Positions 21,523 to 22,479 of a stretch of DNA of 41,073 bases are shown in pieces; the stretch's first letter is position 1, and each line of letters starts with the position of its first letter. Position numbers and translations under genes: made by a program. The stretch comes from Pirellulales bacterium (GTDB lineage: Bacteria > Planctomycetota > Planctomycetia > Pirellulales > Pirellulaceae), in contig JAKUOW010000016.1 in the NCBI GenBank assembly GCA_022451045.1, forward strand, positions 1 through 41,073, given 5' to 3'. Below the pieces are notes generated by a model. It saw only the letters and a program-made list of their open reading frames with translations, made no database searches and was not told the origin of the DNA.

Positions 21523-22479
21523 ATGTGCACCCTGAGTTTTTGGAAACTGTTAGCCCTCTTTGTTGTTCTTATAACCGGTTGTGGCGATTCAGACGGTGTA
21601 AATTGGCCAGACCAAAATGATCTCTATCCTGTTATTGAAAACCCAATCACCACGGAAATTGTGGATGTTTCTAACTCTATTTTTGACGACGAATTAGTAT
21701 TAGGCGTTGTTATTGATGGAAAGTCGCGTGCTTATCCAATTAACATGCTGACCGGGCCAACACGAGAGATCATAAATGACGAGTTGAGTGATGTTGCAAT
21801 CGCTGCGACGTGGTGACACCTCTGTCATAACGGTATCGTGTATATCCGTGAAATTGATGGAAAGCAGCTGACATTTGCTGTTTCACCTCTCTTGTATAAC
21901 GAGAGTTTAGTAATGGTAGATTCCGAGACGAATACCTTTTGGAGTCACTTGCTGGGTAAAGCCATGCGCGGCCCATTGGAGGGTCAGGAACTAAAGATGA
22001 TCAATTCGGTTGTTTGTGATTGGAAGTCATGGAAAGCAGACCATCCTGACACAACGGTGTTGGATATGGTTCCGACAATCGCATCACTTAAGGATGACTA
22101 TTATGCTGATGCATCAGAATACATTATTGGCATGACAGCTGACGGAAAATCTCGAGCATGGCAATTAGACCATCTGAAAAAATCAACAATCATCAACGAT
22201 GAATTCAATGGTTCGGTAGTCATCTGCCATGATCAGAACGGTTTAGGTACGCAAGTGTTTAGTTCGATGATTGATGGTAAATCACTAACCTTTATTATCA
22301 AAAAAGATCAGATGCGAGATCTGGAGACCGACAGTACATGGAACATGCGAACCGGTAAAGCTATTGACGGTGCACTAACAGGCCGTTTGCTAAAACCACG
22401 GGATTCAAAGATCTCATTAAAGAAAGCCTGGGATGTTTTCTATCCAGAAAGTAGTTATTGGTTTCCTGTAGAAGACTGA
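21523..22479 (+). CDS. DUF3179-domain lipoprotein with in-frame TGA at 21814-21816 read as candidate selenocysteine (appears as two ORFs 21523-21816 and 21838-22479)
   Basis: Same frame on both sides of the TGA (tgg TGA cac ctc tgt). Upstream: lipobox LITGC and VVIDGKSRAYPINMLTGPTREIINDELSDVAIAATW. Downstream: HLCHNGIVYIREIDGKQLTFAVSPLLYNESLVMVDSETNTFWSHLLGKAMRGPLEG. Together these form one continuous DUF3179 domain, with TGA at the first Cys of the family's CxxC. Confidence 0.7.
21830..21849 (+). promoter_or_regulatory. Candidate bacterial SECIS-like stem-loop downstream of the in-frame TGA
   Basis: ACGGTAT (21830-21836) pairs with ATA (21842-21844) and CCGT (21846-21849), with a single bulged T at 21845. 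The apical loop is CGTGT with G at loop position 2, 22 nt after the TGA. Confidence 0.45.

Follow-up and report, generated by a model that had tools for sequence, protein, structure and literature searches.

An in-frame UGA at a universal cysteine position of a planctomycete DUF3179 lipoprotein gene probably encodes selenocysteine

The gene studied here lies in a window of 41,073 nucleotides, the whole stretch of DNA that was analysed, and most probably (about 0.93) encodes a single exported DUF3179 lipoprotein of 318 residues. According to this reading of the sequence, SelB and Sec-tRNA-Sec, directed by a hairpin 20 nt downstream, would place selenocysteine (Sec) at the internal UGA, codon 98. 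The open frame is continuous apart from this codon, the UGA falls on a column that is Sec or Cys throughout the family, the hairpin covaries, and tRNA-Sec, SelA and SelB are encoded in the genome; insertion of Sec in the cell is what these features imply. The gene is a well-supported addition to the known DUF3179 selenoproteins and adds detail on their spread, their SECIS elements and their key residues. The features of the locus are as follows.

21523..22479, + strand: DUF3179 selenoprotein gene (predicted), 318 aa with the internal UGA as Sec; continuous PF11376 match over the UGA
21568..21582, + strand: lipobox LITGC, residues 16-20, at the end of the predicted signal peptide (from the translation); lipidated Cys20 predicted
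21619..22068, + strand: first DUF3179 repeat, with the Sec site; its beta fold may be Rieske/NirD-like (Pfam, AF2 pLDDT 93.6, Foldseek)
21814..21816, + strand: in-frame UGA, putative Sec98; aligned column Sec (55) or Cys (29)
21823..21825, + strand: Cys101, second Cys of UxxC; kept in the main clade, not family-wide
21832-21836 / 21842-21846, + strand: arms of the SECIS-like hairpin within the coding sequence, loop CGUGU at 21837-21841; 20 nt after the UGA
22090..22452, + strand: second, degenerate DUF3179 repeat lacking the U/CxxC motif (second Pfam stretch, hhalign)
22477..22479, + strand: terminal UGA, a genuine stop without hairpin (from the sequence)

Contig C68 of a marine planctomycete metagenome-assembled genome (G000; 4.59 Mb, 91.4% complete) makes up the window. 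Read directly, the open reading frames 21523-21816 and 21838-22479 form a single frame, interrupted solely by the TGA at 21814-21816. Translation starts at an ATG at 21523 and proceeds for 220 sense codons beyond the internal TGA to the TGA at 22477-22479; with the UGA decoded, residue 98 stands in the context AATW-U-HLCHNGIVY. The Pfam model DUF3179 (PF11376) spans the internal stop with an E-value of 4e-56 and 190.9 bits, against a gathering cut-off of 27, and the probability of the frame staying open over 213 codons by chance is about 1e-5 at the given base composition. The sequence-only reading, which had proposed one frame with intact sequence after the stop, is confirmed on both points. 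The lipobox was recognised by eye on the translation as the bacterial lipoprotein criterion, and the AF2 model contains a helix at residues 4-18 in this signal region.

The same UGA-bearing gene is present in the sister genome G001, the closest of the relatives compared, and a total of 65 complete joined homologues was collected, mostly with 40-60% identity to a reference member. The dN/dS comparison of the two sister genes involves too few substitutions and is weak, uninformative evidence. Across 148 related genomes, the internal stops in DUF3179 frames are nearly all TGA, with one weak TAG match, while the terminal stops of Sec DUF3179 genes are mixed (TAG 31, TGA 30, TAA 24). No relative of the protein was found in PDB sequence searches, and NCBIfam yielded no model for it or for its paralogue. 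The neighbourhood of 93 loci contains no conserved neighbour that points to a function; the antisense open reading frames recurring there are a shadow of the gene itself.

Selenocysteine has a precedent in this family. DUF3179 appears in the selenoprotein family lists of reviews from 2022 and 2026 with the motif UxxC/T (PMC9312934, PMC13188914), and both trace the DUF3179 selenoprotein to Zhang and Gladyshev 2007 and a symbiont of Olavius algarvensis. The proposal of a new selenoprotein family therefore does not stand. The protein described here belongs to the same Pfam family and would likewise carry Sec at the U of UxxC; in contrast to the listed members, it comes from a planctomycete and falls into an extensive PVC/Poribacteria clade that has a distinctive conserved motif, TW-U-HLCHNG, and a hairpin of its own. 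Neither selenoproteome review (PMC9312934, PMC13188914) names Planctomycetes or Verrucomicrobia. What seems to be new is the wide spread among PVC bacteria, the repeated switching between Cys and Sec, and a dispensable second Cys beside a universal Sec/Cys position. The internal duplication with a motif-less second half and a weak but consistent match to a Rieske/NirD-like fold also appear to be new.

In an alignment of 84 DUF3179 proteins, the UGA column is occupied by Sec in 55 and by Cys in 29, and by nothing else. Four further rows were set aside, of which two are gapped at this column, one is a weak match with Asp, and one has its UGA outside the motif. The expectation that the UGA would fall on an invariant Cys column is thus borne out. 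Cys-type proteins with the motif TYCPLCDS occur in the same planctomycete families and are homologous, with Cys at the Sec column. The main Sec clade shares the motif ATW-U-HLCHNGIVY, while other Sec groups show TYUIIC, VYUTLC, TWUPIC, SFUAVC, VWUPLA, SWUPAT and CSYUSSE. The second Cys is missing in the last three of these and also in five deep Cys members (TYCNLS, TYCNAT, TYCRVN, VYCDKS and VHCNEA). Because several Sec and Cys members lack it, residue 101 appears dispensable and residue 98 universal, which speaks against an obligatory CxxC dithiol. The earlier interpretation as a UxxC/CxxC redox motif is therefore too narrow. On the tree, at least seven changes between Cys and Sec are needed, four of which are forced by well-supported branches. 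A contrasting case is locus L070 (G016:C82), a Cys-type DUF3179 frame with a TGA at a column outside the active site, likely a true nonsense change or an error.

A TGA at the motif was found in 32 of the 148 related genomes, as anticipated for a UGA recurring at the same column. A selA gene scores over the cut-off in 29 of these 32, and a 30th contains a partial selA at the end of a contig; over all genomes, motif TGA and selA are associated with a Fisher p of 5e-6. In two UGA-bearing relatives, G065 and G063 (86% and 82% complete), selA was not detected. Furthermore, a strict DNA pattern for the UHxC form, W-U-H-x-C-x-N-G-(I/V)-V-Y, matched 83 contigs of species-representative genomes; the pattern required TGA and TAY and is therefore blind to the absence of other forms. 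The loci of this strict form belong to Planctomycetota (49), Verrucomicrobiota (27), Poribacteria (3) and one unnamed bacterium. Individual loci show unusual architectures: L083 contains two tandem Sec-DUF3179 copies within one frame, and at L097 (833-4990) an isochorismatase domain shares a frame with Sec-DUF3179.

A 5-bp stem, 20 nt past the UGA, is common to 82 core genes, with a loop that is mostly CGUGU; in the window it reads GGUAU-CGUGU-AUAUC. When divergent Sec groups are taken in (46 sequences in all), 99.1% of cells are paired, compared with 19-59% in controls slid along the alignment, and in four of the five pairs both partners have changed. Such two-sided changes affect 22 cells versus 3.9 in shuffles, and all measures exceed both the shuffled and the slid controls. 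To one stem pair, an Ile/Val codon contributes its first base and a Tyr codon its wobble base; this pair is A-T in 59 genes and G-C in 23, with zero exceptions. Each of its two positions changes nine times on the tree, and the five well-supported independent pairs of changes are all concordant, although a sign test with five pairs cannot reach 0.05. All five pairs are formed in 91% of Sec genes but in none of 19 Cys genes; the TYCPLCDS-type genes have no SECIS-like stem at the equivalent position. By folding energy alone, Sec and Cys genes are only weakly distinguished (p 0.035), whereas pairing at the fixed position and covariation separate them clearly. The bSECIS model describes a loop of 3-9 nt, a stem of 4-16 bp, a G among the first two nucleotides of the loop and a distance of 16-37 nt from the UGA (PMC13188914). 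With a 5-nt loop whose second nucleotide is G, a stem of 5 bp and a distance of 20 nt, the hairpin agrees with this model, so that the search for a SECIS element suggested earlier has yielded a candidate with covariation. A scan of the window with Rfam gathering thresholds gave no match.

The sequence-only reading had also proposed a search for selA, selB, selD and tRNA-Sec in the host, which recovered all but selD from the incomplete assembly. The tRNA-Sec is located on contig C283, with 64 bits in the Rfam model and a SeC assignment with anticodon TCA by ARAGORN. The adjoining selB and selA are on C40; guaA contains the end of both contigs, which are probably neighbours in the genome. The sister genome also contains selA. 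Searches with a selD model and a relative's SelD found no selD in either of these incomplete assemblies (91% and 89%), while many relatives possess the gene; that it turned up in neither may be due to a gap common to the two assemblies or to a genuine anomaly. In a relative that is 99% complete, SelD itself has an internal TGA (L057, G003:C23:35063-35989), yet no selA scores over the cut-off. The host encodes a second UGA-bearing DUF3179 paralogue (L012 1306-2082, G000:C335) with the UGA at the same column. Its motif, CSY-U-SSE, is of the CxxU type without a second Cys, and the gene directly follows an FG-GAP/ASPIC-UnbV gene.

Other explanations of the internal UGA fare poorly. That it is a random nonsense change or sequencing error in a dead or mis-assembled gene is exceedingly improbable; such cases occur, as in G016, but here the same UGA occupies the same codon in dozens of genera of three bacterial groups, and it is followed by an intact domain (median 222 codons downstream in related genes, none below 100) and a covarying hairpin. 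The breadth of conservation already refutes this reading. Reassignment of UGA, e.g., to Trp, or its general suppression in the lineage would account for the open frame and nothing more, and its probability is practically negligible. The code is not reassigned, because TGA is the ordinary stop of 9 of the 28 genes in the window, the DUF3179 gene included, and these stops refute the idea; moreover, the column in homologues is Cys and never Trp, and the host tRNA with the UCA anticodon has Sec-type folding. The locus might instead yield two products, a truncated lipoprotein of 97 aa and a separate C-terminal protein starting at GTG 21838, 21 nt after the UGA. A short form is indeed expected from termination at the UGA in Sec-starved cells, but the split would fall inside one beta domain predicted as a unit (pLDDT >90). 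The GTG, in turn, lies in the hairpin and encodes Val106, a residue that Cys homologues likewise keep at the protein level, and two separate products are very improbable.

AF2 predicts, with high confidence (pLDDT 91.4), a beta protein made of two repeats. The two repeats are homologous (hhalign 99.6%, 34% identity), and the sequence comparison indicates an internal duplication with loss of the motif from the second half. Foldseek searches against the PDB gave no significant match. For the first repeat, the matches that superpose with an rmsd of no more than about 4 across roughly 80 columns are nearly all to NirD or Rieske domains; the E-values of the best-superposed ones are 0.3-10. The uncharacterised protein A0A1V0SD44 of the giant virus Indivirus ILV1 matches the fold (model m705e58a764f0) with an E-value of 7e-8.

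These well-superposed matches, comprising Rieske ferredoxins, Rieske oxygenases and NirD, raise the question of whether Sec98/Cys98 might bind a metal or cluster within a Rieske-like domain instead of acting as a redox or nucleophilic selenol. The U/C-x-x-C would sit about where the second Rieske motif, C-x-x-H, would be guessed. However, the [2Fe-2S] ligand pattern CxH...CxxH is incomplete in the DUF3179 protein, with no CxH and with U/CxxC in place of CxxH. The second Cys is dispensable, and hhalign against a planctomycete Rieske profile gave a probability of 0.9%, i.e., no sequence similarity. A ligand role is thus considered unlikely, and the beta fold of the first repeat, possibly shared with NirD and Rieske ferredoxins, is a lead only, to a Rieske-like fold without a cluster. 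A tentative extension is that DUF3179 may be a duplicated Rieske/NirD-like domain in which the cluster was lost and a cluster-Cys position turned into a catalytic Cys/Sec, with the Sec version dominant in PVC bacteria.

As for the selenol reading, the chances are about even that the Sec98 selenol, located outside the cytoplasm among conserved residues, serves a redox or selenol-nucleophile enzyme as its reactive group. This mechanism is suggested because residue 98 is universal and in view of known Sec chemistry. The conserved residues Arg69, Tyr71, Glu82, Asn85 and Asp86 would surround Sec98, and Cys101 might serve as an optional resolving partner, while the second repeat would be a structural remnant that has lost its active site.

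Annotation pipelines that are blind to UGA will split or truncate these genes. For a family of unknown function, the alignment marks residue 98 as essential and residue 101 as not, which can guide biochemical tests. If the derivation from a Rieske/NirD-like domain were true, DUF3179 would represent a class of selenoenzymes built on a fold not expected for them. Sec is widespread in this DUF3179 clade of Planctomycetota and Verrucomicrobiota.
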